Positions 1,474 to 47,819 of a DNA stretch of 47,819 nucleotides are shown here, one piece after another (the stretch's first letter is position 1; each line of letters opens with the position of its first letter). This DNA is from Nesterenkonia sedimenti (GTDB taxonomy: Bacteria; Actinomycetota; Actinomycetes; Actinomycetales; Micrococcaceae): positions 1-47,819 of the forward strand of contig NZ_JABAHY010000019.1 of NCBI RefSeq assembly GCF_012641515.1, written 5' to 3'. A program made the position numbers and the translations under genes. Below the pieces are notes generated by a model. That model was not told where the DNA came from and made no database searches. It saw nothing but the letters and a program-made list of their open reading frames with translations.

Positions 1474-2039
1474 GTTCCAAGTGTAATAGAACAGACATTC
1501 GAATTCAATACCTTGAGGAAGAAAACTGCGAAATTTTACTGGGGTGAAGCGACTTGAGAGGAGTAGGGGAGGAAGCTTTCAGAGTGACTCGACAACCGCC
1601 GTCATCGCTGCTCGGAACTGACGAAATGGGTCTGCGTCATAGGGGGGTCACTGTCGGTGAGCGCCAGCTCCCGGGTGGGGCGGTGGCAGAAGGGTGCGGC
1701 GCTGGCCGTCGCTGGATGCTGGGATGGGTGGGCCCGTGCCAGGACCGAGTCACGGGGAGAAGTCTCAGTGACTCAGAGTCAGTATCCCGCGGGTGAGGAA
1801 AAGGGGGACACAAGGGGAAAGCGCTGTAGGCAAGCGGTAGCTCCCGGGCGAGGGGAACAGTGGCGGAAGGCTGCGGTGCCGCTTGTCGTTGGATGCTCGA
1901 GATGGGTAATCCGTGCCCGAGGGCAAGCGAAACGAGCAGGCAGATCCCCTTCAGTGCGACTGACTACCCCCTCGTCAATGCTGCAGCCTCCCGCAGGACT
2001 AAGCGATACGGGGGCCCGCAGAAAGGACTCGGCCGCAAC
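1474..2039. other. 566-bp stretch without a convincing gene
   Basis: The stretch lies between the HNH pseudogene start and the purD-purC stop. Short open frames occur on the plus strand but none has recognisable protein features, and they overlap repeated DNA. No tRNA or clear terminator was seen. The only structure noted is an imperfect direct repeat, listed separately. Confidence 0.6.
1666..1922. repeat. Imperfect direct repeat, two units of about 80 bp
   Basis: Units at 1666-1745 and 1839-1922 both begin AGCTCCCGGG and share GTGGC(A/G)GAAGG, GCTGGATGCT/GTTGGATGCT, GATGGGT and CCGTGCC in the same order, with small indels. They are diverged, so the duplication is old or both derive from a dispersed repeat family. 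Function unknown. Confidence 0.55.
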
Positions 2040-4226: not shown

Positions 4227-4255
4227 AGTCCCCAAGCCTATCGGTAGATAAGCTG

Positions 4256-5275
4256 ATGCCCATGGCGAATTCTCAGACCGCAACAGTGGAGGGCGCAGCG
4301 GAGCTGGCCGTAGTTACCCGGGCCGGATTGGTGGAGTCCCGGCATATCGGTTCGGCAGTGCTGCTGGATCCCCAGGGTGAAGTGCTGGCCTCCCTGGGTG
4401 AACCCGAGGCAATCACCTTCCCGCGGTCAGCGCTGAAACCCCTGCAGGCGGTGGCCTCACTGCGCGCTGGGGCGCTGATCAGCCCGGAGTCGGTGGCCCT
4501 GGCCTGCGGTTCCCACCTCGGTACCCCGCGGCACCAGGAGCTGGCGGCCACCACCCTGGCCAAGGAGCGGCTCGACGAGACCTACCTCAAATGTCCGGCG
4601 GCCTACCCCGGTCGCAGCAAGGACCTCGAGGAGCACCTGCGGGCGGAGAAGCCCAAGACCCCGCTGGCCTTCAACTGCTCCGGTAAGCATGCCGCGTTCC
4701 TGGCCGCCGCACGCACCCAGGGCTCCCGGCTGGCCACCTATACCGACTCCAACCACCCGGTTCAGCAGGTGGTCAACGAGGTCTACGCCGAATACTGCGA
4801 GGAGACCCCCACCGCCACCGGCGTGGACGGCTGTGGCGCCCCGGCGGCCGCGATGAGCCTGACCGGACTGGCCCGGGGGATCGGCAAACTGGCCTCCGCC
4901 CTGACCCGCCGCGACGCGGAGGTGCATGCATTCACCGTCGCCCAGGCCATGCTGGACTACCCCTGGGCGGTCCGCGGGCCGGGGGAGACTGACACTGTGG
5001 TCATGGAACAGCTGGGCCTGCTGAGCAAACTCGGCGCCGAGGGCATCCTGGTGGTGGCCGCCCCCGATGGCACCGCCGCCGCAGTCAAAACCCTGGACGG
5101 CTCGTCCCGGGCCAATCACCTGGTGGCACTGAGCCTGCTGGCCTCCCGCGGCAAGATCGAACTCAACGACCTCCAGCGGGTGCTGACCATCCTGGTCAAA
5201 CCGATCACCGGTGGTGCTGACGAGACACCGGCCGGGGAGCTGCGGCTGAGCGAAACCGTCACCGCCGCGCTGTAA
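4256..5275 (+). CDS. Asparaginase, thermolabile (Rhizobium-type AnsA/II) family
   Basis: The 339-aa product matches the family of actinobacterial and rhizobial asparaginases unrelated to the E. coli enzymes: VTRAGLVESRHIGSAVLLD near the N-terminus, FPRSALKPLQAVA, ALACGSHLGTPRH, FNCSGKHAAFLA and GVDGCGAPAAAMSLTGLA. It is expected to hydrolyse L-asparagine to aspartate and ammonia in the cytoplasm. No signal peptide is visible. Alternative starts are the ATGs at 4256 and 4262. The SCP-like gene begins 21 bp after its stop and is probably co-transcribed. Substrate is inferred from the family only. Confidence 0.85.
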   Translation: MPMANSQTATVEGAAELAVVTRAGLVESRHIGSAVLLDPQGEVLASLGEPEAITFPRSALKPLQAVASLRAGALISPESVALACGSHLGTPRHQELAATTLAKERLDETYLKCPAAYPGRSKDLEEHLRAEKPKTPLAFNCSGKHAAFLAAARTQGSRLATYTDSNHPVQQVVNEVYAEYCEETPTATGVDGCGAPAAAMSLTGLARGIGKLASALTRRDAEVHAFTVAQAMLDYPWAVRGPGETDTVVMEQLGLLSKLGAEGILVVAAPDGTAAAVKTLDGSSRANHLVALSLLASRGKIELNDLQRVLTILVKPITGGADETPAGELRLSETVTAAL

Positions 5276-5296
5276 GCGGTACAGGAGAGCGCCACC

Positions 5297-5653
5297 ATGG
5301 CACGACGACGTATCGCACCGGCAGCCGGAGACGCTGCGGTGAAGACCTGGTCCGCAGGGGAGGCCGACCGCAAGACCCTGGCCACGGCAGTGCGCTACCT
5401 CCTGGAAGAACTGGCCGAACGCGCACCCGGAAACTCCGTAGAAGTCCGGGTCCCGCCCTTCGGGGTCACCCAATGCGTGGCTGGGCCCACCCATACGCGC
5501 GGGACCCCGCCGAATGTGGTCGAACTGACCGCCGAGACCTGGCTGGAGCTGGCCACCGGGGCCACAACCTGGCAGACAGCCCACGATGACGGACGGATCA
5601 CCGCATCAGGAATCCGTGCGGATCTCTCCGATCACCTCCCCCTCATCAAATGA
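5297..5653 (+). CDS. SCP-like protein (bacterial SCP ortholog, SCP_3 type)
   Basis: The 118-aa product begins MARRRIAPAAG and carries EVRVPPFGVTQCV, TRGTPPNVVE, ETWLELATG and ASGIRADL. These are the hallmarks of the short actinobacterial sterol-carrier-like family often found beside purine genes. The fold suggests binding of a hydrophobic ligand, but no ligand or partner is known to me. An AGGAGAG Shine-Dalgarno sequence precedes the ATG. It follows the asparaginase gene closely and ends 62 bp before fdhA. Confidence 0.85.
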   Translation: MARRRIAPAAGDAAVKTWSAGEADRKTLATAVRYLLEELAERAPGNSVEVRVPPFGVTQCVAGPTHTRGTPPNVVELTAETWLELATGATTWQTAHDDGRITASGIRADLSDHLPLIK

Positions 5654-5664
5654 CCGATAAAACG

Positions 5665-5676
5665 GCCTGATCAGGC
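5665..5676. promoter_or_regulatory. 12-bp palindrome upstream of fdhA
   Basis: GCCTGATCAGGC is a perfect palindrome 39 bp upstream of the fdhA ATG, in the only non-coding gap before the formate dehydrogenase genes. It could be an operator. A palindrome with the same CTGATCAG core lies upstream of focA at 16400-16411. The core also occurs inside genes in this window, so the assignment is weak. Confidence 0.3.
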
Positions 5677-5715
5677 GGCTCAACCCCCTCCACTTGAGCG
5701 CCTGCAACTGTTACT

Positions 5716-8700
5716 ATGCCTTTTATGGCACGGATCACGCCTCTTGAATGGCCGGTCCTCCGGCAGCTGCGTTCCCGGGACTCCACCGGCCGCGGCGCTG
5801 CCGTCACGTCGAAGAAGACCCGTGCGACCAAACCCCGAACTGACGACGCCGACAAAGTGGTGCAGAGCATCTGCCCCTACTGCGCGGTGGGATGTGGTCA
5901 GAAGGTCTACGCCAAAGATGACCGCGTGATCCATATTGAGGGCGATCCCGATTCCCCCATCTCCCGGGGGCGGCTCTGCCCCAAAGGCGCAGCCAGCGAG
6001 CAGCTGGTCAACTCCGCCGGCCGCCAGACCAAGATCCTCTACCGGGCACCACACTCCCGTGAGTGGGAGGCACTGGATAAGGACCGGGCCCTGGATATGA
6101 TCGCCGACCGATTCCTCGAGGCCCGGCGTCGCTACTGGCAGGATGAAGACGAGCACGGCAATCCGCTCAACCGCACCCTCGGGGTGGCCAGTCTGGGCGG
6201 GGCCACTATCGATAATGAAGAGAACTACCTCATCAAGAAACTCTTCACCGCCGCCGGGGCCGTTCAGATCGAGAACCAAGCGCGTATTTGACACTCCTCC
6301 ACGGTTCCCGGTCTGGGAACCTCATTTGGGCGTGGGGGCGCCACACAACCCCAGCAGGATCTGGCCAATGCCGACTGCATCGTCATCCAGGGCTCCAATA
6401 TGGCCGAATGCCATCCGGTGGGCTTCCAATGGGTGACTGAAGCCAAAAAGCGCGGTGCCCGGATCATCCACGTCGACCCCCGGTTCACCCGCACCAGCGC
6501 AGTGGCGGATAAACATATCGCCCTGCGTGCCGGAAGTGACATCGTCCTGCTGGGTGCCCTGGTCAACTATGTGCTGAGCAATGACCTCTACTTCAAGGAG
6601 TACGTCCGGCACTACACCAATGCGGCCACTATCGTCTCCGAGGACTACCGCGACGCCGAGGATCTCGACGGCCTCTTCTCCGGCTATAACCCGGAGGACG
6701 CTTCCTATGATCCGACCTCATGGTCCTATCACTCCCGCAGCGGTCAGGAGAAGGTCGAGGAGCCGGGCACTGAGGCTGAGGGCGAGTACGCCGAACCGGA
6801 GGAGTATGGTGCAGGCGGTCCTTCCTTGAAGCACGCCGATCTGGCCCATGATGACACCCTGGAAGACCCAAACTGTGTCTTCCAGCTGCTCAAGCGCCAC
6901 TACGCCCGCTACACCCCGGAGATGGTGGAAGAGGCCTGCGGTATCTCCGCCGAAGACTTCGCCTATCTGGCGGAGTCGATGACCCAGAATTCCGGGCGGG
7001 ACCGCACCACCGCCTTCTGCTATGCGGTGGGCTGGACCCAGCATGCCCAGGGCGCACAGTTCATCCGCACCGCGGCCATACTGCAGCTGCTGCTGGGCAA
7101 TATGGGGCGCCCCGGTGGAGGAATCATCGCCCTGCGCGGGCACGCCACCATCCAGGGCTGCACCGATATCCCGACCCTGTTCAACCTGCTCCCCGGGTAT
7201 CTGCCGATGCCCGAGGCCGGTGAGCACAACACCCTGCAGGACTACACCGGGGCCATCGGCTCACGGCTGCAGAAGGGGTTCTGGGCCAATGCCGATGCCT
7301 ATACCGTCAGCCTGCTCAAGGCCTGGTTCGGCGATGCCGCCCAGGAGGATAACGACTACGCCTTCGGGTACCTCCCCCGCCTCACCGGAGCCCATGGCAC
7401 CTACCAAACCCTGGAGCGGATGCTCCGCGATGAGGTCGATGGGTACTTCCTGGTCGGCCAGAACCCCGCGGTGGGATCGGCCAATGGCAAGATGCAGCGG
7501 CTGGCCATGTCCCATCTGAAGTGGCTGGTAGTCCGCGACTTCAGCCTCATCGAATCCGCCACCTGGTGGAAGGACGGCCCGGAGATCGAAAGTGGTGAGC
7601 TGCGCACAGAGGATATCGAGACCGAGGTCTTCTTCATGCCCGCGGCCAACCACACGGAGAAGGCCGGCTCCTTCACCCAGACCCAGCGGCTGGTCCAATG
7701 GCGCCACCAGGCAGTGAACCCGCCCGATGACGCCCAGAGCGAGTTGGAGTTCTTCCACGAGTTGGGCAAACGGATCCGGGCCCGCCTGGCCGATTCCGAT
7801 GACCCCCGCGACCGCCCACTGCAGGCCCTCACCTGGGACTATCCCACAGATGAACATGGCGAGCCCGATGCCGAAGCAGTGCTGAAGGAGATCAACGGCT
7901 CCTATGTCTCCGGGCCGGATCAGGGCAAACCGCTTTCGGCCTTCACCCAGATGCGCGCCGATGGTTCCACTGCCGGTGGCTGCTGGATCTACACCGGGAT
8001 CTTCGCCGATGGCGTCAACCAGGCAGCCCGGCGTAAACCCGGTCAGGAGCAGGATGAGACGGCTGCCGAATGGGCCTGGGCCTGGCCGGCCAACCGCCGG
8101 ATTCTCTACAACCGTGCCTCGGCAGACCCCGAGGGCAAGCCCTGGAGCGACCGTAAGAAGTACATCTGGTGGGATGAGAAGGAAGAACGCTGGATCGGTA
8201 AGGACGTCCCGGACTTCCCGGTAAAACTGGCGCCGGGCACCAAATCTGATCCGGAGGCAGGCGGCCCTGAGGCGCTGGCCGGTGATGACCCGTTCATCAT
8301 GCAGGCCGATGGCAAAGGTTGGCTCTTCGCCCCCAGCGGCATGGTGGATGGGCCCATGCCGACCCACTATGAGCCTCCAGAGTCCCCCATCGACAACCCC
8401 CTCTATGGTCAGCAGAGTAATCCAGCCCGAATCGTCTTCCCTCGAGAAGACAATTTCCTGGCCCCGTCGTCGAACCAGCCAGGCTCCGATGTGTACCCCT
8501 ATATCTTCACCACCTACCGGCTGACCGAGCACCACACTGCCGGTGGCATGAGCAGGTTCCTGCCCTATCTCTCGGAGCTTCAGCCGGAGATGTTCTGCGA
8601 GGTCTCACCGGAGTTCGCCGAACTGGTCGGTTTGGAGAACTACGGCTGGGCCACCATCATCTCCCCGCGCTCAGCCATTGAGGCTAAGGTCCTGGTCACC

Positions 8701-9024
8701 GATAGGGTCCGGCCGCTGACCGTCGGTGGCCGGCGAATCCACCAGGTCGGTCTGCCCTACCACTGGGGAACCGGAACCGATGCTGTGGTGGAGGGCGATG
8801 CCGCCAATGACCTCTTGGGCATCACCCTGGATCCGAACGTGCAGATTCAGGGCTCCAAGGCGGCTCAATGCGCGGTGGAACCCGGAAGGCGCCCCCATGG
8901 CAAACAGCTGCTGGAGCTCGTCGAGCAGTACCGTCGCAGGGCCGGTATCACCGTGGAGACAGGCAATAGACGACTCACTGTGCCCTATGGTGAGTCAGAG
9001 GCCAACACCGAAGAGGAGGGCTGA
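5716..9024 (+). CDS. fdhA: Formate dehydrogenase alpha subunit, selenocysteine-containing (UGA at 6289-6291)
   Basis: The 1102-aa molybdopterin enzyme oxidises formate to CO2. The N-terminal [4Fe-4S] ligands lie in CPYCAVGCG and RGRLCPKG. Codon 192 is TGA within NQARI-U-HSSTVPGLGTSFGRGG, exactly where FdhF/FdnG-type enzymes carry selenocysteine, and the frame continues without another stop for 911 codons. Downstream are Mo-pterin motifs such as VIQGSNMAECHPVGFQW, HVDPRFTRTSA and FLVGQNPAVGSANGK. No twin-arginine signal is visible, so the catalytic subunit probably stays in the cytoplasm. The start is uncertain: ATGs at 5716 and 5725 both lack a clear Shine-Dalgarno. A conventional gene caller would split it into two ORFs. 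The stop overlaps the fdhB start (ATGA type). Confidence 0.95.
6289..6321 (+). promoter_or_regulatory. SECIS element directing UGA recoding in fdhA
   Basis: The UGA is followed by 11 nt and then a perfect 7-bp hairpin: GGTTCCC (6303-6309), loop GGTCT (6310-6314), GGGAACC (6315-6321). The E. coli fdhF element, as I recall it, also has 11 nt between UGA and a GGTTGCAGGTCTGCACC-like apical hairpin. The spacing and the GGTCT loop read by SelB are therefore conserved. The bulged U of the E. coli stem can pair with A here. Confidence 0.88.
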
Positions 9025-10025
9025 TGGTTTCGCTCACCGAAGACCCCCGCCGAAGTTCCGAGGCCCATGGGCATCGCGCCCAGGCCCGGAAGTCATTCTT
9101 CACCGATACCTCGATCTGCATTGGGTGCAAGGCCTGCGAGGTGGCCTGTAAGGAGTGGAATCGCAATCCCCAGGACGGCGATCTCGAACTGCTGGAATCC
9201 TCCTATGACAACACCGGTGCCCTGGGTGCCAATACCTGGCGCCATGTGGCCTTTGTGGAACAGGACCAGGAGCGGATCGAAACCGCACGTGAGTCCGGCC
9301 GGCAATTAGTCGACCTCGGGATGCCGAGTGTGGGCCCGCCGCCGTCGTCATCGGCAAATGGCAATGGCACCGATACCAAGCTTCCGGACACCAATGAATT
9401 CCGTTGGCTGATGTCCTCCGATGTCTGCAAGCACTGCACCCATGCCGGCTGTCTGGATGTCTGCCCGACCGGCGCCCTGTACCGCACGGAGTTCGGCACG
9501 GTGAAAGTGCAGGAGGATATCTGCAACGGCTGCGGAACCTGCGTGGGCGGCTGCCCCTTCGGGGTCATCGAACGCCGCGATGAAGGCATCATCCGGGCCA
9601 AGACTGAGCGCAACCAGTCCAAATACGCACAGGAGATCCCCAATGAGGGAACGGCGAATAAATGCACCTTCTGCCATGACCGGCTGGTAGACGGCCAGAC
9701 ACCGGCCTGCGCCCAGACCTGTCCCACCACCTCGATCAAATTCGGTGAACATACCGATATGGTCAGCCAGGCCCGTGAACGCGTAGCCCAGCTGCACCAA
9801 CAGGGGATGACCGAGGCACGTCTCTACGGTGCGAACCCCAATGACGGTGTCGGCGGAACCGGTTCGGTCTTCCTCCTCTTGGATGAGCCAGAGGTCTATG
9901 GTCTGCCGCCGGATCCCCGGGTGCCCACCAAGGACCTACCGCGGATGTACAAACAGACAGCGATGGCGGCCGTCGGCATGTTGGCCGCCGTGGGCGCCTC
10001 CTTTGTCCTAGGGGGCCGCCGGTGA
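9024..10025 (+). CDS. fdhB: Formate dehydrogenase beta subunit, four-cluster ferredoxin protein
   Basis: The 333-aa electron-transfer subunit has four Cys clusters: CIGCKACEVACKEW near residue 33, CKHCTHAGCLDVCPTG, CNGCGTCVGGCPFG, and a split set CTFCHDRLVDGQTPACAQTCP. These should hold four [4Fe-4S] centres carrying electrons from FdhA to the membrane. The C-terminus (TAMAAVGMLAAVGASFVLGG) looks like a single membrane anchor, as in FdnH-type subunits. The ATG overlaps the fdhA stop and its own stop overlaps the GTG of the next gene, indicating translational coupling. Confidence 0.93.
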   Translation: MVSLTEDPRRSSEAHGHRAQARKSFFTDTSICIGCKACEVACKEWNRNPQDGDLELLESSYDNTGALGANTWRHVAFVEQDQERIETARESGRQLVDLGMPSVGPPPSSSANGNGTDTKLPDTNEFRWLMSSDVCKHCTHAGCLDVCPTGALYRTEFGTVKVQEDICNGCGTCVGGCPFGVIERRDEGIIRAKTERNQSKYAQEIPNEGTANKCTFCHDRLVDGQTPACAQTCPTTSIKFGEHTDMVSQARERVAQLHQQGMTEARLYGANPNDGVGGTGSVFLLLDEPEVYGLPPDPRVPTKDLPRMYKQTAMAAVGMLAAVGASFVLGGRR

Positions 10026-11089
10026 CGACCTCGCGTCATGACAGCCACCGTCCCCCCGAGACGCCGCGGGGTGGCAAGAAGGGGCGTAAGGCTGATGATG
10101 GTGCCCGGGAAATTCCGGTGGTGGAGAAACCCGAGTTCTCCTCCTACTACGGGCGGCCGGTGGTCAAAGCCCCGCCCTGGGGAGACGAGATCGGGGCCTA
10201 TCTCTTCCTCGGCGGACTCGCCGGGGGATCCGCACTGCTTTCGGTGGGTGGGCAGCTCACTGGCAAACCGACCCTGCAGCGCAATGCGCGGCTGACCGCT
10301 CTGGGTGCCGTAGGTCTGGGCACCGCAGCACTGATCCACGATCTGGGCCGGCCCGAACGCTTTCTCTATATGCTGCGGACCTTCAAGCCCACCTCTCCGA
10401 TGAGTATGGGCACTTGGCTGTTGAGCTCCTTCAGCACTGCCGCCGGGGTCACCGCCACTGTGGAGATCGACCGGCTCACCGGTTACCGCCTGCCCCTGGG
10501 GCCAGGCCGAAAACTCCTGCATGGCCTCGAGGGGCCAGCCGAGCTCGGAACGAGCCTTCTGGGTGCCCCGCTGGCAAGTTATACCGGGGCGCTGCTGGCT
10601 GATACCGCTGTGCCGACATGGAATGCCGGTCGGGACGAGCTGCCCTATCTCTTCGCCTCCTCGGCCTCTCTGGCCGCCTCCGGGGCGGCCCTGGTCACCA
10701 CCCCGACCCACCAGACTCAACCGGCCCGAGTCCTCTCGGCAGTCGGCGCCATCGGTGAGCTGGCCTCGATGAAGATCATGAAGAAGCGGATGCACCCCGC
10801 TGAAGCCTCCCCCCTCGAAGAGGGAACTCCGGGCAAGATGCTCGAATGGGCCGAACGGCTCACCATCGCAGGCGCCGCGGGATCCGTGCTCCTCGGCGGC
10901 CGGCGCACCGCAGCGGTGGCCAGTGGTCTGATGATGCTGGCCGGCTCCGCACTGACCCGAGTGGGGATCCTGCGTGCCGGTATCGCCTCAGCCAAGGACC
11001 CCCGGCATACTGTGGAGCCGCAGAAGGCGCGGCTGCAAAAACGCCGAGCCAAAGGCGTGGTGGACGACTCCATCACCACAGTCGGCTGA
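10022..11089 (+). CDS. NrfD/PsrC-type membrane subunit of formate dehydrogenase
   Basis: The 355-aa product starts at the GTG at 10022, overlapping the fdhB stop. After a charged N-terminus it shows PPWGDEIGAYLFLGGLAGGSA, the typical NrfD/PsrC entry into the first helix. Several hydrophobic helices follow, with HDLGRPERFLYMLR, FKPTSPMSMGTW and a charged C-terminal tail. NrfD proteins pass electrons to quinone without haem. The complex is therefore likely a membrane-bound FdhAB-NrfD enzyme feeding formate electrons into the menaquinone pool. Third gene of the fdh operon. Confidence 0.88.
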   Translation: MTTSRHDSHRPPETPRGGKKGRKADDGAREIPVVEKPEFSSYYGRPVVKAPPWGDEIGAYLFLGGLAGGSALLSVGGQLTGKPTLQRNARLTALGAVGLGTAALIHDLGRPERFLYMLRTFKPTSPMSMGTWLLSSFSTAAGVTATVEIDRLTGYRLPLGPGRKLLHGLEGPAELGTSLLGAPLASYTGALLADTAVPTWNAGRDELPYLFASSASLAASGAALVTTPTHQTQPARVLSAVGAIGELASMKIMKKRMHPAEASPLEEGTPGKMLEWAERLTIAGAAGSVLLGGRRTAAVASGLMMLAGSALTRVGILRAGIASAKDPRHTVEPQKARLQKRRAKGVVDDSITTVG

Positions 11090-11128
11090 ACGAACGGTCC
11101 AGTTCGGGGCTGCAGCGCAGTCTCCGGC

Positions 11129-12151
11129 TCAGCGGATCTCGATCACTGCCCCGCCTGCTTCGGGAGCCTCAGTGGTGTGACCGATCACCGGATACCCGGG
11201 GATCTCGCCGACCACGAGCAGTCCACCGGAGGTTTGGGCATCAGCCAGGGTCAGCAGATCCTCCTCGGTGATACCGGCACCGGCGCTGAGGTGATCGCGC
11301 ACCCAGTCCAGGTTCCGCCGGGTTCCCCCGGAGACATAACCATCCCGCAGCGCCTCGGCCGCACCGGAGACCAGGGGAACTGCAGCGGCATCGAGCTGAG
11401 CGCCCACCCCCGAACCGCGGCACATTTTGTACAGATGCCCCAAGAGGCCGAAGCCGGTGACGTCGGTGGCTGCCCGGATACCTGCCGTCACAGCAGCTTC
11501 GGCGGCCTCCCGGTTCAGTGTGGTCATCGTCGCCACAGCCTCCTCGAAGACCTCCCCGGTTGCCTTATGCCGGTTGTTCAACAGGCCCAGGCCAATCGGT
11601 TTGGTCAGGGTCAGGGGCAGCCCCGGTTCGGCAGCGTCATTGCGCAGAAGGTTCTTGGAGGCTGCAGTCCCAGTGACTGAGAGCCCATATTTCGGTTCGG
11701 GGTCATCGACTGTGTGGCCCCCGATCAGTGGGCAACCGGCCTGCTCAGCCACGGCCAGGCCTCCGCGGAGCACCTCGGCTAGCAGCTCCATCGGCAGGGT
11801 GTCCCGCGGCCAGCCGACCAGGTTGATCGCCACCGTGGGGGTCCCGCCCATGGCGTAGATATCGGAGAAAGCATTGGCCGCGGCAATCCGGCCCCAGTCA
11901 TAGGCATCATCGACAACTGGGGTGAAGAAATCGGCGGTGGACAAAATGGCGGTCTCATCATTGAATCGCACGGCCGCGGCGTCGTCGCCGTTATTCAGAC
12001 CCACCAGGACCTGGTCATTCTGCGGGCTGGGCAGTGACCCCAGAACCTCCTCGAGTTCACCCGGTGGAATCTTGCAGGCACACCCCCCGCCATGGGCGTA
12101 GCCGGTCAGACGCGGTGCGGTGGTCTCTGCGGCAGTGGAGGTAAGACTCAT
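11129..12151 (-). CDS. selD: Selenophosphate synthetase
   Basis: SelD makes selenophosphate from selenide and ATP, the selenium donor for SelA. The product shows the glycine-rich N-terminal motif HGGGCACKIPP with Cys (TGT) at the catalytic position that is Sec in some homologues, then NNGDDAAAVRF, STADFFTPVVDDAYDWGRIAAANAFSDIYAMGG and TDVTGFGLLGHL. The ATG at 12151 gives 340 aa, close to the usual length; an in-frame ATG at 12223 would add 24 residues with no family features. It is divergent from the tRNA-Sec/selA/selB unit and convergent with the fdh operon. Confidence 0.95.
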   Translation of the reverse strand: MSLTSTAAETTAPRLTGYAHGGGCACKIPPGELEEVLGSLPSPQNDQVLVGLNNGDDAAAVRFNDETAILSTADFFTPVVDDAYDWGRIAAANAFSDIYAMGGTPTVAINLVGWPRDTLPMELLAEVLRGGLAVAEQAGCPLIGGHTVDDPEPKYGLSVTGTAASKNLLRNDAAEPGLPLTLTKPIGLGLLNNRHKATGEVFEEAVATMTTLNREAAEAAVTAGIRAATDVTGFGLLGHLYKMCRGSGVGAQLDAAAVPLVSGAAEALRDGYVSGGTRRNLDWVRDHLSAGAGITEEDLLTLADAQTSGGLLVVGEIPGYPVIGHTTEAPEAGGAVIEIR

Positions 12152-12270: not shown

Positions 12271-12365
12271 GGAGGTGTATGAGTCCTGGTGGGCTCCGCG
12301 GTCTTCAAAACCGTTGAGACCGAGTACCTCGGTCTGGCGGGTTCGATTCCCGTCCACCTCCGCCA
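12271..12365 (+). tRNA. selC: tRNA-Sec, anticodon UCA, CCA encoded
   Basis: The 95-nt gene begins GGAGGTG and ends with CACCTCC-G-CCA, giving a long acceptor stem. The anticodon loop CTTCAAA (12303-12309) shows TCA at 12305-12307, flanked by the pairing segments GCGGT and ACCGT. A long extra arm (GAGACCGAG TAC CTCGGTCT) and a T arm with GGTTCGATTCC follow. Length, extra arm and UCA anticodon together identify selenocysteine tRNA. It sits between divergent selD and co-oriented selA. Confidence 0.96.
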
Positions 12366-39255: not shown

Positions 39256-39657
39256 TCAGCTGCCGTGCAGGGCCTCCGGCGGTCCGGCGCGCGAGGTCTG
39301 CTGCGTGCTCAGCTCGGCGGGGAGCAGCTCGGAGAGTACGACGACGTCGAAACGCTTGCTCACCGTCACCCTCACCTCAGTGGGATACTCACCGCCGACC
39401 GAGCAGGACTCCAGCTCCACGCCGTTGCGGGCAGCTACCTGACCGGCCACTGTGCAGGGGTCCCCGGTGTTCAGCCCGCGGGCGGTATCGGCCCCAGCCA
39501 AGGCAGCAAGGTCCGCCGCGCGGGTGGCATGCGTTGTGGCCACCGCCACGGCGCCCAGCACAGCCACCAGGGCCAGGAGGAGGATGAGCACGGCGATGAT
39601 TCCCACGGCGACCACTGTTCCGGAGCCGCGATCCTCGGTATGAGCACCGCGGATCAC
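39256..39657 (-). CDS. TadE-like secreted/pseudopilin protein (Rv3654c type)
   Basis: The 133-aa protein starts MIRGAHTEDRGSGTVVAVG with a type IV prepilin-like site followed by a hydrophobic helix (IIAVLILLLALVAVLGAVAV), then ATRAADLAALAGAD, typical of the actinobacterial Rv3654c group. Two Cys (DPCTVAG and LESCSVGG) may form a disulfide. Its start overlaps the tadE stop. It should be secreted or membrane-anchored as a minor pilin. Confidence 0.82.
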   Translation of the reverse strand: MIRGAHTEDRGSGTVVAVGIIAVLILLLALVAVLGAVAVATTHATRAADLAALAGADTARGLNTGDPCTVAGQVAARNGVELESCSVGGEYPTEVRVTVSKRFDVVVLSELLPAELSTQQTSRAGPPEALHGS

Positions 39658-40052
39658 GGGACATCCCCCAGGCTGGCCAGGTGCTCGGTCCGGGCGTGAG
39701 CTTCAGCAGACTGCTCCGCATTGAGCTCGATCAGACCGAGCACGCTCACCTGCCGGGTGAGGACCACTCGGCTATATTCGCCCTCGGCGGAGATCGCTAC
39801 TGAGACATCATCCCCGGCGGTTTCCCGGGCGATGCTCTCAGCAGCAGCGGCAGTCTCTCCGCGGGCCAATTCCCTGGCGGCAGCACGAGCGCCGTCCTCC
39901 AGGGCAACCCGGGCCGCTGACTGGAATCCCAGCGAGAGCACCAGCAGCAGCACCAGGATGATCCCGGGGATGGCCAGCGCGAACTCAGCAGTCACTGAGC
40001 CGCGCTCGGCCTCAGCGGAACCATGGGAACCATGCCGTCTCATGAGGCGCAC
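39654..40052 (-). CDS. TadE family pseudopilin
   Basis: The 132-aa protein has the prepilin pattern ERGSVTAEFALAIPGIILVL with the conserved Glu after the cleavage site, one membrane helix, and an Ala-rich extracytoplasmic part. It matches Rv3655c-type TadE proteins. Starts at 40052 or 40043 are possible. It begins 3 bp after the DUF4244 remnant stop, as expected for a pilin-tadE operon, but the whole block is on the opposite strand to tadABC. Confidence 0.85.
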   Translation of the reverse strand: MRLMRRHGSHGSAEAERGSVTAEFALAIPGIILVLLLVLSLGFQSAARVALEDGARAAARELARGETAAAAESIARETAGDDVSVAISAEGEYSRVVLTRQVSVLGLIELNAEQSAEAHARTEHLASLGDVP

Positions 40053-40055
40053 GCC

Positions 40056-40196
40056 CTACGGGTTCAGGGCCTGCTGCACGAGCGCTTCCAACCAGCCCCG
40101 AACTGTGTCCGAGGTCAGGATGGCGGTGAGCAGTCCGGCAAAAGCTACTGCTGCCACGGTACCCCGGCTAACACGTACTGTTACGCAAAGACACAT
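40056..40196 (-). pseudogene. DUF4244 pilin-like gene, 5' end lost
   Basis: The last 36 codons (GTVAAVAFAGLL, ILTSDTVRGWLEALVQQALNP) match the C-terminal part of the actinobacterial DUF4244/Flp-like pilin. In family members the GTVAA stretch is preceded by a prepilin segment ending in an A-EYA-type motif. Here the codons before it read MCLCVTVRVSR, with no cleavage site or Glu. The sequence beyond about 40160 belongs to a different region. The gene is therefore probably truncated by insertion or rearrangement, leaving a 46-codon ORF that could not make a processed pilin. Confidence 0.7.
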
Positions 40197-40275: not shown

Positions 40276-43200
40276 TTATCGGCTGTAGGGAGCCAACGAT
40301 CTGTTACCAGCAACCACAAGGGAGTCGACCAGCATCTGCCAGTCCCCGAGACGACCAAGTTCCTCCGCAGCGTTACGTGTTTCCTTAAGCCAATCATTTA
40401 GCAGCCACGGCTGCCTGACCGTAACGCGCCCGGACTGGATGCACAGGTTCGCAACCCACGCAATGCCCCGTGTCACCTGCACGTTTATTGGAAGTCTCTT
40501 CAGGAGACGGACGAGCGCTTCGACACACCTAGCCTTACCCCGTCCTAAAGGAAGCCAACTCTCAACCAAGTCGAGTAGATCTTCGGCACAGACCCAGTCG
40601 ATGGCTTTTCTCGTGACTTCGTTCTGCAGTCCTGAGGCCCACGGCAGAGGGTCGGGAAGCAGAGCGGCCGCTGCCCAATCGCCCCAGTGGTGGTGAGCGT
40701 ACGGACTCACGTCATCATGGTGATAGGTGATTCCGTGACGGAGGACCGTCGGCCATATGCGCCGCGCGGCATTGGCGAGGTCTTCATTCTCGGCGCCAGC
40801 TGCAGCCAATCCGTGCAGGAAGTTCAACATGCTGCTTGCTTCAACGCTCAGGATGTCGAGTTGTGCCAATACTGGTGACGAGTCACAACCTTTCGCGTAC
40901 ACCTTTAGGAGCGCCCGTGCTGCGACAAGGGTGTGGGTGCCGCGGTCATCTGCGCCCACACCTTGTTGCGCGTGTGCCACCAGAGCCCGGCCCTGAACAT
41001 CGAGCAGAGTCGCAAGGAATGAAGCTGCTGCCGCAGTGCGGCAGTGTTGGGTAGCTTGAGCGGCTCCAAGGCCGCGGATGGCTGGGTCGAGTACTTTGAT
41101 GTACACCCTTCCACCAGGGAGGTCCTCAAGCCGCGTGACGATGTCGCCTTCGATGGGAGCCAGCTGTCGGCCGTGCCCACTTTCGTTCCACGGACCGATC
41201 TCCGCGTTGCGTGCGGTCTCGAGGAGCCAGTCCAGGGCAGTTTGGTGCATGCATGGATCGCCATTGCAGGGGGAGGACCAAATGACGTCACAGCCGCGGG
41301 CAAGGAAGAGCCGAGTTTCCTGGGGGGCATTGCCAGCTATTGCAAACCCTGCATCCACGACGTCACGCACGCTACCGGCCGCACTGTTCAGTGCTGCGGC
41401 TAGCTCGGGGGTTAGGAATGCCGGCAGCGCGTGAGCTACAGCACGGTCGGCGCCGAGATCAAAGTACTGACCGTCATCCCCCTGGTTTTCGACATCACTG
41501 AACGAGGACGCGAGTTCAAGGACGAACTGGATCGCCAAGGCCGCATAGTCGCCAAGCGCGTCCAGGTCACCTGCAGCGGCTCTCTCCACCGCCGCCCGGA
41601 TGACGTGAGCAACTGCGTCCGTGAGACCGATCGCCTCAAACTCTTCCTCGCTTTGAAGCAGCGCGTGACACGTCTCTAGGTCCGCGGCGATCTCCTCGGA
41701 TGCAAGAGGGACGCCATCGACGTCCCGTGTACCCGAGCCCCAGTATCGATTCTGGAGTCCCACGATGTTATTGACCGTCCTCTGATAAGCAGCGTTGGCT
41801 TGCTGCACGGCGAGCAGTTCGGGTGGCGGTTCAACCTCTACGAGCACACCTTCGGGCACGGACGTTCGCTTGTACTGATCTGCGTCGAGGCTGGCGGCCC
41901 AACCCCTCGTCAGACCAGGATCGAAGCGTAACAGATCACCGGTCTCGATGAGCTGCTCGCCGACCGTCTTGAGCGCCTCGATTCGCTCTGCACCGCAATG
42001 GGTAATCATGAAAAAGGCGACGTCGCGAGGTGTCCACTGGCGGCGGTTGAGGTTCTTAAGTCCTTCCGTTGACGCCGCAAGGCCGTTACGCTCTTGCGTC
42101 GCGCGTGCGAACTCAAGTGTCCACACGTCCGGTTCCGCCAGGAACGAGTCGAGTGCATCGCCGACGACGTCGATGTGACGGACCAAGACGCCATAAAGCA
42201 TGCCGGGCATAGCGAGATTCTCACAACCTTCTAGGACTAAGTCGACGACTCGACGGGCCGGAATACCGTGCTCCAGCCACATCTCGATGACGCGTTCCAT
42301 CGCCTGCAGGGCACTCGTCGCCGCGTATGGGCCCACGCTGGTACCGCGGTACCAACTCCAAACGTGCGAATCGCCGACGTATAGCCGTCGGGTACCGTCG
42401 ATGTTTAGGACACAACCCCTCTCTTCGTCCTCGTTGCCCTCGTCAGTCCCAGCGACCTGGCCGTTCTTGTCTACCTGAAGCGCGAACTGGTCGGGGCTCG
42501 TAAGCCGCGATATGGTTCGGACGCGCGCATTGGCACCGCTGTTTAAAATGTTGTTCATTACACGTACGAGAGTCGTCGGGTCCGCGTAATGACACAGCGA
42601 CCAGAAGCCACCGAAATAGAACATGGAAAAAGGTCCGCCCACGCTCGTCCACCGGCCATCATGTCGCCTGACGCCCTCGTCGTGAAATGAGTGGAGTTCG
42701 TCCTCGATGTAGTAGGACTCCATCAACGTGGCGAGCAAATTAGGGTCGCGCTGTGCTATAGCACGAGCGCTTAACGGTGAGTCAACCGCAGGTGCAAGAA
42801 AAGATGGCGCGTCTTCAGCGAGGTCGCGCAGGCATGCCTCGGCCTCGTCGTTGAGGTCTTTTCCAAGGAGCGCCAAGGTTTCGACAAAGTTCGCTCTGGT
42901 CAATTGGTAGTCCAGTTTGCGGCGCCTTCGACTGCGACGCGGGGTCGAGAAGCCGCCGAACCGAACAGCGCCTGGAATGTCGTCCTCTGGGCGCGGCTTG
43001 AGCGGGGGGCAGGCCTTCCAATACTTAAGCACACGTGCCCTCAGAGCGACGCGCAGCTCGTTCCCCTCTGCAGCGTCCGCAAAGACGAGGGCCTGTAGCC
43101 AATCCGCAAGAAGCTCGAACGAATCCTCAGAGATGTTCCAAGGTTCCTCATGATCTAAGAGGAAACGGACCACGGCGCCTGCAACGTCTGTGTCGATGAG

Positions 43201-45402
43201 CCCCCCGGCCCGGTGCCTCTGCCCCACGATTCGGACGACATCGGCGAGCTCCAGGTTTGACCCTGCGTCAGCGATCCCAGCCTTTAGACATTCGTACGCC
43301 ATCGGTGTCTCCAGAACCGCTTCGACCGGAACATCTGCCCATCGAGCTCCGTGCTTGCCGGCGAATGCCCGGAACCCCGCAATGAAATCGAGGAACCTCT
43401 GTTCCGGCCGGACCCTGGGATCCTTTAGCAGACCGTTGCACGCGAGCGTCGCAGCCGATAACGCCCACCTCGGGGCGCCAGCGGCCTCAAGGACCTGGAT
43501 TAGATCCTGAGCGCGAACAAGCAAGATGGTGGTCGCATAGCGACGCACCTCATCATGGGCAAACTCGAGCTGTTCCTGGTACGGGTTCGCAGGCGCGAGT
43601 AAGTGGTCTCGCCTTAGCTGATCGACGGCCTCAGCATCGGTGCCAGCAACGGGACGCAACTCTGGCGGAAGCTGCATTACCGTTGCCGCCGCCGCCAAAA
43701 GGGTCTGCTCACGGGCCTGCGCCGACCCGGCGCTAGGACGATTCTCGCCGCGGCCGACGTTGGCCCACACTAAATTCATGCATTCCCACTCGCTAAGTGT
43801 GCCATTGAGCCTGACTCCGGTCCGGGCAAGGAGATCGAGCACGACGGGGCGACGCAAGAGAGAGTTCTTTGGCAAATCGCGCAGAACCGGACGTATGAGC
43901 GCGAAGTTTTCGGCAACGATCTCGATATCGTCATCACCGAGCAGTTCGACCTCGAACGGGACCACGGACCGACCGAATCCCGTCCTTAGCTGCTCCGACA
44001 CGAACTCGGATGCAACATCGGAGCTGATCGCAACGACCCCCACGCCGGCAGACTTAGCAGACACTATAAGGTCGCTCAGTAGCGGGGCCGAACGTTCCAG
44101 AGCCGCGTCAGCTGCGTCTATGACCAGGACCCTAAGATGAGCAGAAAGTTCAGTCAGCAACTCCTGAACCGACAGGCCCAGAGCAGTATGCAACTCAAAG
44201 GTCGAGTGGGGAAGGTTCTTGAAATTCAAGATCACCGCCTCGAACCCGCCCCGGTGTTCAGCCTCTAGTTCCGCGACAGTCGAAATCGTCATCGCGCTCT
44301 TGCCCGTACCGGACTGGCCGTGAACCAATAGCGGCGAACCCCCATCGGCACCGGCTGCTAGCAGGGCTTCCCTAAGACGTTCACGCCGATCGGTGAAAGA
44401 CAGTTCAAGAGAACTGCCGGCAGCGTTATCCCCGATGCTTGCGCGTAACCCGTCTAGCGCCAGCTGCCGGTTACCCTCCATCACCTTCCACGCGGCACTG
44501 CTGCGAGTCCGAGCGACGTTCAACAGTCGATGGACGTCACGGCGCAGAACATCGCGATCAACCACGGCACCGACCCGGTCGTAGCGCGCCGCCTCGATCC
44601 CAAGCCTGTCCCGAAGTGCCACTCCGTTGGCCCCTGAGTTCGTCACTGGATCCAGATCAGTCGCAACCGCAGTACGATCACGTTCATCTGGTGTTTGCAC
44701 CGCGAACGTGAGCATGCGAAAACGGCGCAACAGACGCCACGTGAGGTGAGCTACCTCCGCGTCGCTGACGTCACTACCACGCGCCTTCCTGACCATGGCC
44801 TGAAACTGGGAGAACCGACTGCGCACTGGCGTGGCCCAACGGCCATCCACATTAGTGGACGCCTCGAACGCAGGCGCGTCTGCGTGTGCCCGAGCGATGT
44901 CAGACAGCATAGCGAGCTCGTCCCACTGTTTTGCGTGCCCTGCCGCTGCTACAGCTACCAGGTGCGTGTCGCTGTTGAACTTCTCCACCTCTGCCAGCAG
45001 CGAGCCGACCAACTTAACGGTCCCGTCGTCACTCTGCACAAAGTTAGGAGTCGCACGACACGCGACAGCCAGGGTCACCTCCGACGCGTCATCTCCACCG
45101 GTGACAAGCAAGTCATCAACGGGGTGTTCTGGGCCGGTTTGGAACGCGATCCGGCGGACAGGTAGCTCAGATAGCTCAGGACGGCGGGACCCAGTCAGGA
45201 TACTCGCTAAGTACACCGTTGCGACCGAATGCGCGAAGGAGACGCCCCCACCGCCAGTCGAGTATGGGCTGGAACCGGAAAGCACCTCGGTCTTCTGCCT
45301 CTTACCGTCCGACGGAACGTTGCTACTTGAGCGGGACGTCTCACCGGAGGATGCGCCCGCATCTTGACCGTCGTGGGGTCTCCCCGCAGTCTTTGGCTCC
45401 AT
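40276..45402 (-). CDS. Very large P-loop (STAND/AAA-like) NTPase of unknown function
   Basis: The 1708-aa product starts at ATG 45402, with GGAGGAG 3 nt upstream; an in-frame ATG at 45642 would add 80 residues without features. Residues 1-50 are a Ser/Gly-rich linker. Residues 52-180 may be a restriction-like fold: PVDDLLV (95-100) and LAVACRATP (111-119) lie where D and (D/E)xK would stand, but the Lys is missing. Residues 200-340 are helical. Walker A is GQSGTGKS (362-369) and Walker B VLVIDAAD (425-432), followed by VVAISSD. About 1200 helical residues follow, with LYVGDSHVWSWYRG and THTLVAARALLKV. I recall similar uncharacterised proteins in other actinobacteria. Codons look less GC-rich than in neighbours, which suggests transfer. 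Confidence 0.8.
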   Translation of the reverse strand: MEPKTAGRPHDGQDAGASSGETSRSSSNVPSDGKRQKTEVLSGSSPYSTGGGGVSFAHSVATVYLASILTGSRRPELSELPVRRIAFQTGPEHPVDDLLVTGGDDASEVTLAVACRATPNFVQSDDGTVKLVGSLLAEVEKFNSDTHLVAVAAAGHAKQWDELAMLSDIARAHADAPAFEASTNVDGRWATPVRSRFSQFQAMVRKARGSDVSDAEVAHLTWRLLRRFRMLTFAVQTPDERDRTAVATDLDPVTNSGANGVALRDRLGIEAARYDRVGAVVDRDVLRRDVHRLLNVARTRSSAAWKVMEGNRQLALDGLRASIGDNAAGSSLELSFTDRRERLREALLAAGADGGSPLLVHGQSGTGKSAMTISTVAELEAEHRGGFEAVILNFKNLPHSTFELHTALGLSVQELLTELSAHLRVLVIDAADAALERSAPLLSDLIVSAKSAGVGVVAISSDVASEFVSEQLRTGFGRSVVPFEVELLGDDDIEIVAENFALIRPVLRDLPKNSLLRRPVVLDLLARTGVRLNGTLSEWECMNLVWANVGRGENRPSAGSAQAREQTLLAAAATVMQLPPELRPVAGTDAEAVDQLRRDHLLAPANPYQEQLEFAHDEVRRYATTILLVRAQDLIQVLEAAGAPRWALSAATLACNGLLKDPRVRPEQRFLDFIAGFRAFAGKHGARWADVPVEAVLETPMAYECLKAGIADAGSNLELADVVRIVGQRHRAGGLIDTDVAGAVVRFLLDHEEPWNISEDSFELLADWLQALVFADAAEGNELRVALRARVLKYWKACPPLKPRPEDDIPGAVRFGGFSTPRRSRRRRKLDYQLTRANFVETLALLGKDLNDEAEACLRDLAEDAPSFLAPAVDSPLSARAIAQRDPNLLATLMESYYIEDELHSFHDEGVRRHDGRWTSVGGPFSMFYFGGFWSLCHYADPTTLVRVMNNILNSGANARVRTISRLTSPDQFALQVDKNGQVAGTDEGNEDEERGCVLNIDGTRRLYVGDSHVWSWYRGTSVGPYAATSALQAMERVIEMWLEHGIPARRVVDLVLEGCENLAMPGMLYGVLVRHIDVVGDALDSFLAEPDVWTLEFARATQERNGLAASTEGLKNLNRRQWTPRDVAFFMITHCGAERIEALKTVGEQLIETGDLLRFDPGLTRGWAASLDADQYKRTSVPEGVLVEVEPPPELLAVQQANAAYQRTVNNIVGLQNRYWGSGTRDVDGVPLASEEIAADLETCHALLQSEEEFEAIGLTDAVAHVIRAAVERAAAGDLDALGDYAALAIQFVLELASSFSDVENQGDDGQYFDLGADRAVAHALPAFLTPELAAALNSAAGSVRDVVDAGFAIAGNAPQETRLFLARGCDVIWSSPCNGDPCMHQTALDWLLETARNAEIGPWNESGHGRQLAPIEGDIVTRLEDLPGGRVYIKVLDPAIRGLGAAQATQHCRTAAAASFLATLLDVQGRALVAHAQQGVGADDRGTHTLVAARALLKVYAKGCDSSPVLAQLDILSVEASSMLNFLHGLAAAGAENEDLANAARRIWPTVLRHGITYHHDDVSPYAHHHWGDWAAAALLPDPLPWASGLQNEVTRKAIDWVCAEDLLDLVESWLPLGRGKARCVEALVRLLKRLPINVQVTRGIAWVANLCIQSGRVTVRQPWLLNDWLKETRNAAEELGRLGDWQMLVDSLVVAGNRSLAPYSR

Positions 45403-45803
45403 TGGCTCCTCCAAGAAAACCTCGCTTGGCCTAGCGGCCATCATCAGCACCGGGACGATAGCGATTACCCAATACTCTCGCACGATCGCGCCGTATATGT
45501 ATCGCGGAAGGTAGCCGCTTTCGATTGGCGCCATATTTACACTGCGTCTCGGTGGCGTCGCTCTCACCCTGCCTATTAAGGGTTTGAGATCATCGGCCAG
45601 AACGTGGTGGCCAGGGTCGCCTCGCGCGGCGTATGGAGGCAATGTAGTTGCTCGGACTCTGGGGGTGAGTCGCTCCTCTGTCGCCCGGGCGCTGAACCGC
45701 CCTGAGCCAATCGTCCACCCAACTGGTTAGACGCCGGCTTTTCTGCGGTTGTCGTCTTTGCACAGCATTAGTCCCCTTTCGGGGGGTGCCTCTATGGTTT
45801 TCG
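45403..45803. other. 401-bp gap between the large NTPase gene and the IS110 transposase
   Basis: It holds the Shine-Dalgarno and presumably the promoter of the NTPase gene. On the plus strand an open frame ending at TAG 45728-45730 reads VARTLGVSRSSVARALNRP, which resembles a helix-turn-helix end of a recombinase or regulator; its upstream part is not recognisable, so it may be a remnant. A short inverted repeat CCCC-TTTC-GGGG lies near 45775, possibly at the IS end. Confidence 0.4.
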
Positions 45804-47039
45804 TCAAGCTGCGAGGGCGTGGCCTGAGCTTCCGCGGGCGTTGTCTGGTTCCTGGTAGAAGGTGCCGTCTCTGAGCAGGGCGTAGAGAGTGTCTAGGCGT
45901 CGGCGGGCAAGGGCGATGACGGCCTGTTTGTGGGTCTTCCCGGCAGCGCGTTTCTTGTCGTAGTAAGCCCGTGAAGGTCCGTGGTGCAATGAGGCGAAGG
46001 CGCTGTTGAACAGGGTGGATTTCAGTCTCTTGTTCCCGCCGCGGTTGGCGAACTCCCCGCGGATACTGGTCCCGGAACGTCGGGTGGTGGGGGCGATCCC
46101 GGCGTAGGAAGCGAGGTGACCGGCAGTCTTGAAGTTCTTGCCGACGACCTCGGTGAGGATTCTGGCTGCGGTCCTGACTCCGACTCCGGGCATCGAGGTC
46201 AGGACCTGGTGAAGAGGGTGGGCCTCCACCAGGGCATCAACCTGCTCCAGTACGTTGGCCCGCTGGGAGTAGAGGTCCTTCAACTGCCCGGCGAGGATCG
46301 GCACGATCGTGGCGGCAGCCCCGGTGCCGGCAACCACCACGGTCTGGGCATCCAGGGCGTCGAAGATGGCCTCGGTGATCCTTTCAGCCAGGCGGGGGTT
46401 GTGTTTCTTGATCCGGTTGCGCACATGTCCCCGGCCAGCGGTCTTCAGTTTCTGCGGGGTCGGCCAGGTGACTAGGGCATCGAGGACCCCGTAGTGGTGC
46501 AGGTGTGATCCGAGGGCGCGTTCCAGGCCGGGGTGGATCTGGGTCAGCAGCCCACGTAGCCGGTTCCTGGCTGCGGTGGTCTGGCCCAGCAGATCGTCGT
46601 CGAACCCGCTCAGGACGGCCAGTTCGGCGATCTGTTCATCAGAGGCTGCGATCTGCCGCAGCGCAGAAGGCATTGTGCGGGAGGTTTCAGCGATGATGAA
46701 CGCGTCCCGGGCATCGGTCTTGGCTGAGCCGGCGTGTAAGTCGGCCATCCGGCGCATCGTCAGCCCTGGCAGGTAGGCCACCTCGACATTGTCGGCCTGC
46801 TGGGCTACAGCGACTGGTAGTGCGCCGATGGTGGCGGGCTGATCGACTACCAGCAGTGCTGGGCCGTGGGCTGTGGTCAGCTCCGCAAGCAGGGCACAGA
46901 GTCTGGTCTCATCGTTGGGCAGAGCCTTGTCGTAGACCTTTTCCCCGGAGCGGCTCAGGGCGGTGGCGTGGTGCTCTGTCTTGCCGACGTCCAGGCCGAT
47001 GAACAAAGCGAAACTGAGCAGGTCGAATCCGGTCATCAA
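45804..47039 (-). mobile_element. IS110-family transposase, complete CDS
   Basis: The 411-aa transposase has the N-terminal RuvC-like DEDD domain (FIGLDVGKTEHHA, VVDQPATIG, KTDARDAFIIAE) and the C-terminal Tnp_20 domain with SMPGVGVRTAARILTEV, ASYAGIAPTTRRSG and GGNKRLKSTLFNSAF, including the conserved Ser region. IS110 elements lack typical terminal inverted repeats and use a structured bridge RNA from a non-coding end. The gene seems intact. The exact ends of the element cannot be fixed from one copy. Confidence 0.93.
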
Positions 47040-47471
47040 TCACTCCCATCCGGGGCAGGTGTGTCACCAGCGGCAACAGGGCGCTGCCGCGGCCAGTCAC
47101 CGGCCCGGTGAACCCCATAGGTGGGGTGTGACGGTGGGCGGGTCATGCTCGGCATCCACGTTAGAAAACTGTGAGTCTTGATGGTGGCTGGTCTGGGACC
47201 GGCTGGCAGGGTAGGTACTGGCCGTTCCACTCCGTGGCTATGACTCATTAGAAAACTGACTTTTGGATGTCTTTGGCTTGACTTGTCTGGTCGTGAGGTG
47301 GTCGGCCGGTACCTGCCCGGCCCACCTCGGTAGCTTGATTAGAAGATTGTCCACCCGCTGGGTGTGACCCGTCACAGTGCTGTTCCGACGTGACCCTTAC
47401 CCGGACTGGTACCGGCCGGTGACGGCCGTGAGAACCATGTCCATCACGTTGGAAAGGTGCAGTTGACCGTC
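47040..47471. ncRNA. Non-coding region between divergent IS110 transposases; candidate bridge RNA(s)
   Basis: The 432 bp contain no convincing gene. In IS110-group elements a bridge RNA is encoded upstream of the transposase, and here both transposases start outward from this stretch. Inverted segments are visible, for example GTGAGGTGG with CCACCTC around 47293-47328. Three copies of a TTAGAAAACTG-like word may mark ends or loops. The RNA itself is inferred from family knowledge. Confidence 0.4.
47161..47258. repeat. TTAGAAAACTG short direct repeats
   Basis: TTAGAAAACTG occurs at 47161-47171 and 47248-47258, with a related TTAGAAGATTG at 47339-47349. The spacing is 87 and 91 bp. They may represent junctions of the two IS110 elements or conserved loop sequences. 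Confidence 0.6.
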
Positions 47472-47819
47472 ATGTCTATCGTCGCTGATTCTTATCCATT
47501 TGTCGTGGGGGTCGACACCCACGCCCGCAACCACGTCTATGCAATCCTCGCACCCGCCACCGGTGCCCTGGTTGAGACCCGATCATTTCCGACCTCCGCT
47601 GCCGGGATCACCCGGGCTATGGCCTGGGTGGCCCGCCGCACTGACGCCGACGCCGACACCCTGTGGGTGATCGAGGGTGCAGCCTCCTACGGGGCCATCC
47701 TGGCCGGGACTGTGGCCATCTACGGCTACCCGGTCGCTGAGGCTCCGCGGATGGATGCCAACACCCGCCGCGGGGTGGGCAAGTCCGATGCTATGGATGC
47801 CCACCAGATCGCCGCCGCC
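47472..47819 (+). mobile_element. Second IS110-family transposase, cut by the window end
   Basis: The frame opens at ATG 47472 (MSIVADSYPFVVGVDTHARN) and runs without a stop to the window edge, giving 116 codons. VVGVDTHARNH, LWVIEGAASYGA and GKSDAMDAHQIA match the DEDD domain of IS110-type transposases. The sequence is only distantly like the first transposase, so these are two different elements side by side in divergent orientation. The C-terminal Ser domain is outside the window. Confidence 0.9.

Follow-up and report, generated by a model that had tools for sequence, protein, structure and literature searches.

What is encoded by a gene of 1708 codons that lies next to a broken pilin-like gene and insertion sequences in the actinobacterium Nesterenkonia sedimenti? 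The gene is located on contig NZ_JABAHY010000019.1, which was analyzed over its full 47,819 nucleotides (hereafter the window), and an earlier note made from the letters alone had taken it for a possible defence or sensor protein. The evidence presented here makes it probable that the product is a STAND immune sensor resembling Avs4 and that the gene resides close to an end of a serine-integrase element inserted in the pilin-like gene. Phage defence, recognition of the portal protein and the effector chemistry are what we infer for it.

A STAND protein with the fold of Avs4

On the minus strand, a reading frame is open over 40276-45642. Its start codon, ATG at 45402, is preceded by the ribosome-binding site GGAGGAG (45406..45412, on the minus strand as are all parts of the gene given below) and yields a protein of 1708 residues (open reading frame call, 40279..45402, stop codon 40276-40278). 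Structure prediction and fold searches bear out the proposed layout of an effector-like N-terminus, a STAND NTPase and a long helical, sensor-like part. An N-terminal domain (N-domain, residues 43-300, 44503..45276) is followed by the NTPase domain (residues 301-560, 43723..44502), while residues 700-1708 (40279..43305) comprise the end of the NTPase arm and a helical-repeat, sensor-like region. The P-loop is intact, as had been noted: in an alignment of 19 family members including the window protein, G362, G367 and K368 of Walker A (residues 362-369, 44296..44319) and D429 in the Walker B strand (44104..44133) are invariant. With a P-loop containing Walker A and B and a winged-helix arm behind it, the protein has the arrangement of STAND NTPases. 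Pfam reports P-loop families below threshold only (best AAA_16, E 2e-4, 22.2 bits versus a cut-off of 32.6). Profile searches of the PDB connect the NTPase core to Avs4 (8dgf) with E values of 2.9e-8 and 3.1e-7. When the predicted structure was used for fold searches, the NACHT/Avs4 fold was followed through residue 722; the C-terminal part of about 1000 residues also has the Avs4 fold, and the sensor matches Avs4 over its whole length. Furthermore, the family shares the signature WxWYRGTxVGP (residues 1015-1025, 42328..42360) and Avs4 carries WxxYRGT at the same place in the order, a correspondence that rests on the relative L046, whose match to an Avs4 model (1.2e-8) spans this stretch. The last residues of the protein (window 40279-40300; LAPYSR in close relatives) are conserved to the very C-terminus, which suggests that the tail has a function.

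Several observations weigh against this assignment. Taken alone, the YRGT stretch has no significant similarity to Avs4 (1.3 bits). The Avs4 models PADLOC PDLC02169 and NCBIfam NF041815 recognize 6 and 3 of the 19 family members, respectively, and have no significant match to the window protein; its weak local match to an Avs4 model (9.1 bits, E 0.18) is at chance level, since its own genome and 11 of the 14 control genomes yield chance matches that are just as good. The PADLOC model PDC-M54A outscores those for Avs4 (6 of 19 members, best 1.9e-13) and an Avs1b model matches one of the 19. By sequence, the N-domain is tied to no solved nuclease or Pfam family (profile and single-sequence searches, PDB and Pfam). 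Pfam, run on ten window neighbours, gives a transposase, Tad genes and others of an ordinary kind, and the defence genes described below for relatives stem from hand-picked neighbours lacking a random-gene control, with some matches to general enzyme types (kinase, methylase). Finally, fold similarity does not fix the trigger, because the portal would be extrapolated from a single solved complex at about 12% identity. On balance, the window protein looks like a distant relative of Avs4 and not like a wholly new kind of protein. We refrain from filing it as Avs4, since it escapes the family models and its N-domain is at best a putative nuclease. The present work thus contributes a family akin to Avs4 that is covered only in part by the Avs4 models applied, the window protein being missed. 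The family is not described among the matches listed in a search of the open-access literature, which does not in itself show its absence from print.

A nuclease fold with an altered active site

The predicted N-domain consists of a helix, three strands, a helix and a further strand, corresponding to the alpha-beta-beta-beta-alpha-beta core of PD-(D/E)XK enzymes. With the domain folded within the larger protein, fold comparison matches it to the LmuA, Hachiman and Cap4 nucleases, in agreement with the degenerate nuclease fold suspected for residues 50-200. Two aspartates (D96 and D97 in V95-D96-D97, 45112..45120) are invariant in all 18 rows of the N-domain alignment. In 17 of the 18, (A or G)-x-R stands where the catalytic Q-x-K would be expected, and the window protein, with A114-C115-R116 (45055..45063), does not have a catalytic (D/E/Q)-x-K at this position. 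The helix glutamate is alanine in 8 of 18 N-domains, including that of the window (A57). Q-V-K together with the helix glutamate is kept in L056, and L057 keeps E...DD...QIK in an N piece that is separate. A GGGG loop is conserved as well (GGAG in L056). The N-domain is maintained by purifying selection, since its ratio of nonsynonymous to synonymous substitutions (dN/dS, 0.12-0.25) is near that of the NTPase (0.13-0.28; eight pairs, simple counting, dS saturated for the window pair).

Two functions come into question for such a domain. Either it is still a working nuclease, in which D96/D97 would bind metal, R116 would stand in for the lysine and the GGGG loop would hold phosphate, so that the activated protein would cleave DNA like the known Avs proteins, or it is a true pseudo-nuclease, which would oligomerize, bind nucleic acid or recruit another effector without cleavage. 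The first alternative appears rather doubtful: the invariant aspartates, the arginine at the lysine position, the conserved glycine loop and purifying selection are all in line with it, but with A or G in place of Q in 17 of 18 sequences a metal ligand is lost, and the helix glutamate is missing from 8. The second has close to an even chance. Q and K are lost, as is the helix glutamate in the window clade, while all three are kept by two distant relatives, and the N-terminal slot also takes unrelated domains, as described in the next section. On the other hand, the residues that are kept (DD, R, GGGG) resemble an active site, and no recurrent separate effector gene was noticed beside the N-domain forms, for which no systematic search was made. 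In any case, the loss of Q-x-K argues against ordinary DNA cleavage, and conservation of DD, R and the glycine loop argues against a mere relic.

In L010, L032, L033 and L046, an extra winged-helix-like stretch precedes the N-domain. Where it was scanned with Pfam (L032, L046), matches stayed below the cut-off; NCBIfam HTH_metalloreg matches 3 of the 19 family members.

Exchange of effectors among relatives

The homologue L009 on a Streptomyces plasmid shares 90.9% DNA identity over 4254 bases with L029. This similarity starts at the border between N-domain and NTPase, and no match is found in the 1.5 kb upstream of it. L009 carries a trypsin domain in the slot of the N-domain and a Trypco2 gene just upstream. 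The same combination of N-terminal trypsin domain and Trypco2 gene just upstream is present in L035, whose locus has CRISPR I-E genes at a distance of some 3 kb. L034, of which L036 is a near copy, has no N-domain and comes after a PNP-family gene. In a tree of the core, the separation of the two trypsin forms is supported, and the form beside the PNP-family gene has yet another position, while the deep joins are unsure because of long branches (L046, L011, L056, L012). Relatives therefore swap the N-domain for a protease or, as it seems, for a separate PNP-family enzyme. One receptor body that comes with a nuclease of non-canonical type, with a protease or, as it seems, with an enzyme that processes nucleosides, and whose output was exchanged once between two genes still 91% identical in DNA, amounts to a natural experiment in receptor-effector modularity.

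Parts of these proteins were also encountered in other settings. In the L034 locus (1541-11905), a PNP-family gene is twice followed by a STAND gene, which belongs to the present family in one case and has nSTAND_NTPase5 in the other, and both STAND proteins start with a similar NAVQ.GN.T.N stretch. In Rhodococcus sp. YL-1 (L014, 11908-13599), the N-domain (53% identical) is located on a different P-loop protein whose gene is directly followed by an IS256 transposase gene, and in Streptomyces laculatispora (L015, 6945-8951) it is attached to a protein that carries the annotation PQQ-like beta-propeller. A broken relative (L013, 12001-14475) resides on a Rhodococcus gordoniae plasmid amid IS3 copies and a toxin-antitoxin pair.

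A serine-integrase element in a pilin-like gene

Downstream of the STAND gene, the window holds a 3' remnant of a pilin-like gene (40056..40160, minus strand), i.e., its last 33 or so codons (40062-40160), about the final third, and the right end of the element lies near 40150-40160. The first part is found on another contig (C45:2179-2286), so the broken pilin gene of the earlier note is real. We call the gene pilin-like from its place in a Tad locus and from reading, not from a family scan. The neighbouring TadE gene (39654..40052, minus strand, Pfam TadE 3.9e-7) is the intact flank of the insertion, and 29 of 30 genomes from the genus have a match to it. In five relatives compared, TadB-TadC face Tad-TadE and the pilin-like gene; in one (L070), TadA lies beyond the stretch and about 5 kb separate TadC from Tad. 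On C45, the reading of the gene half continues into a 477-residue protein with PDB matches to serine recombinases (best YokA, E 4.5e-8). For this reason, it is a serine-integrase element that split the pilin-like gene, with the STAND gene at its right end. The crossover core may possibly be CAGTA, common to both junctions but five bases only. Inward of the STAND gene follow IS110 copies. Of the two expected, one is a complete transposase gene (45804..47039, minus strand, Pfam DEDD_Tnp_IS110 8e-43), while the second (47457..47819, plus strand) is a partial open frame at the contig end, identified by eye. The window contig (C11) stops at 47819 and C45 starts inside the element, the middle of which is outside both. 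Domains of the vWA or MoxR type are absent from the ten window proteins scanned with Pfam, nine of which are outside the element. Elsewhere in the window, ARAGORN and Rfam (tRNA-Sec, 81.5 bits) detect a selenocysteine tRNA gene (12271-12365, plus strand), after which come two long frames on the same strand.

Distribution and neighbours of the homologues

The STAND gene is present in a single copy in its own genome, in 1 of 30 same-genus genomes and, among 58 relatives searched (own included), in its own only. A search of genome contigs yielded one close relative, 60% identical, from Arthrobacter sp. 260. Matches were obtained for 6 of 396 genomes of an Actinomycetota sample (E 1e-3, own included; two others full length), in which the PADLOC Avs4 model finds one partial match at 1e-6. 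Further searches gave 4 of 297 genomes at the level of the order and, for the N-domain, 5 of 296 at that of the class (own included in each), 10 of 199 Streptomyces genomes with the core of L009 as query (two weak), and 7 of 72,556 plasmid records. Partial matches near threshold were dropped in the Actinomycetota (G341, G074) and Streptomyces (G466, G578) samples; G344 and G798 represent fragments close to the ends of contigs. None of 50,697 phage records matched, nor did IMG/VR in two pattern scans, which reach only sequences holding the patterns, and a viral origin of the gene was rejected on these grounds.

That the gene encodes a housekeeping ATPase, or is decaying and came to lie beside insertion sequences by chance, is highly improbable. 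Adjoining IS110 copies, the broken pilin-like gene and the broken copies L013 and L057 would fit such an origin. However, the frame is intact, dN/dS against L055 is 0.10-0.18 across four domains (simple counting, dS >1), and instead of the conserved chromosomal context that a housekeeping role would predict, the gene is confined to 1 of 30 genomes in the genus, on which distribution a housekeeping ATPase was rejected.

Enrichment beside defence genes, as anticipated earlier, is suggested for relatives and was not seen at the window itself: a PADLOC scan of 20 neighbouring proteins from 13 loci, picked by eye and run with no random-gene control, gave defence matches at 9 of the 13. Detected were Avs2 (L002, 2.8e-88), Cas1e/5e/6e (L035), a Type I methylase (L010), a type IIG enzyme (L012), HEC-04 (L029, 6.8e-56), a PN-superfamily effector (L034), SIR2 PDC-S65 (L056, 1.7e-141), a kinase (L057, 7.7e-49) and KwaB (L055, 7.5e-13). 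Matches were partial and OLD-like at L009 and restricted to TnsB at L032; the neighbours scanned at L030 and L033 had no PADLOC match. The Avs2-like gene (L002, 2063-7765) lies about 2 kb from the Arthrobacter homologue and is preceded by one for a radical SAM protein.

Proposed mode of action

Part of the text of PMC12931631 describes recognition of terminase, portal or another phage protein by Avs1-4, and passages of PMC12799240 describe activation of fused effectors through oligomerization in AVAST systems. By analogy, the C-terminal part of the window protein may bind a phage protein that is conserved; as for Avs4, the portal is the most likely candidate. Trigger binding and ATP would then lead to oligomerization, bringing the N-terminal domains together, and the assembled N-domains could stop infection by a non-canonical cut or, given the loss of the catalytic pair, by holding on to nucleic acid or bringing in a separate effector.

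A STAND regulator responding to a cellular trigger is an unlikely alternative explanation; it could, for instance, help to maintain a plasmid or element or act when mobile elements are in conflict. The gene does sit on elements and plasmids, 4 of 19 members have the extra helix-turn-helix-like stretch, and STAND proteins include transcription regulators according to part of PMC7159879. The whole-length sensor match to Avs4, the effector types known from defence and the defence neighbours of relatives speak against a cellular trigger.

Returning to the Avs4-like immune sensor, we tentatively propose, at somewhat less than even chance, an actinobacterial branch of portal-sensing Avs4-like receptors in which a conserved sensor is coupled to one of several interchangeable outputs: a nuclease, pseudo or altered, with a conserved DD...(A/G)-x-R..P site, a trypsin domain with Trypco2, or a separate PNP-family enzyme. 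If this holds true, Trypco-type conflict systems would be linked to receptors that directly recognize structural proteins of phages, and these systems could become accessible to experiment with a defined phage trigger. It would also provide a receptor whose output does not depend on canonical DNA cleavage.

Comparison with known systems

The closest solved relative of the window protein is Avs4 (AVAST type 4; PDB 8dgf, bound to the portal of phage PhiV-1), so the earlier statement that no named family matches has to be revised. Avs4 acts as a single gene, and the missing partner genes pointed out earlier are therefore no oddity. The differences from Avs4 are the low identity of about 12%, the N-domain of LmuA/Hachiman/Cap4 type with its lost Q-x-K, and the relatives that swap this domain for trypsin or do without it. 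The nuclease domains of LmuA (Lamassu), Hachiman (8zue) and Cap4 share the fold of the window N-domain but no detectable sequence similarity, and A-x-R replaces Q-x-K in the window protein. L009 and L035, having trypsin and Trypco2, resemble the trypsin-carrying Avs1/Hachiman and Trypco2 systems treated in parts of PMC12799240 and PMC7159879. There, the protease is coupled to an MBL nuclease (passages of PMC12799240) or belongs to vWA-MoxR-VMAP ternary systems (passages of PMC7159879), whereas in L009 and L035 trypsin sits on an Avs4-like sensor. NLR proteins (NLRP3, NLRP9, NLRC4, NOD2) are remote relatives with 10-15% identity to the window protein, from which they differ in their N-terminal domain as well as in their C-terminal repeats; among bacteria, Avs proteins are the counterpart to these immune receptors.
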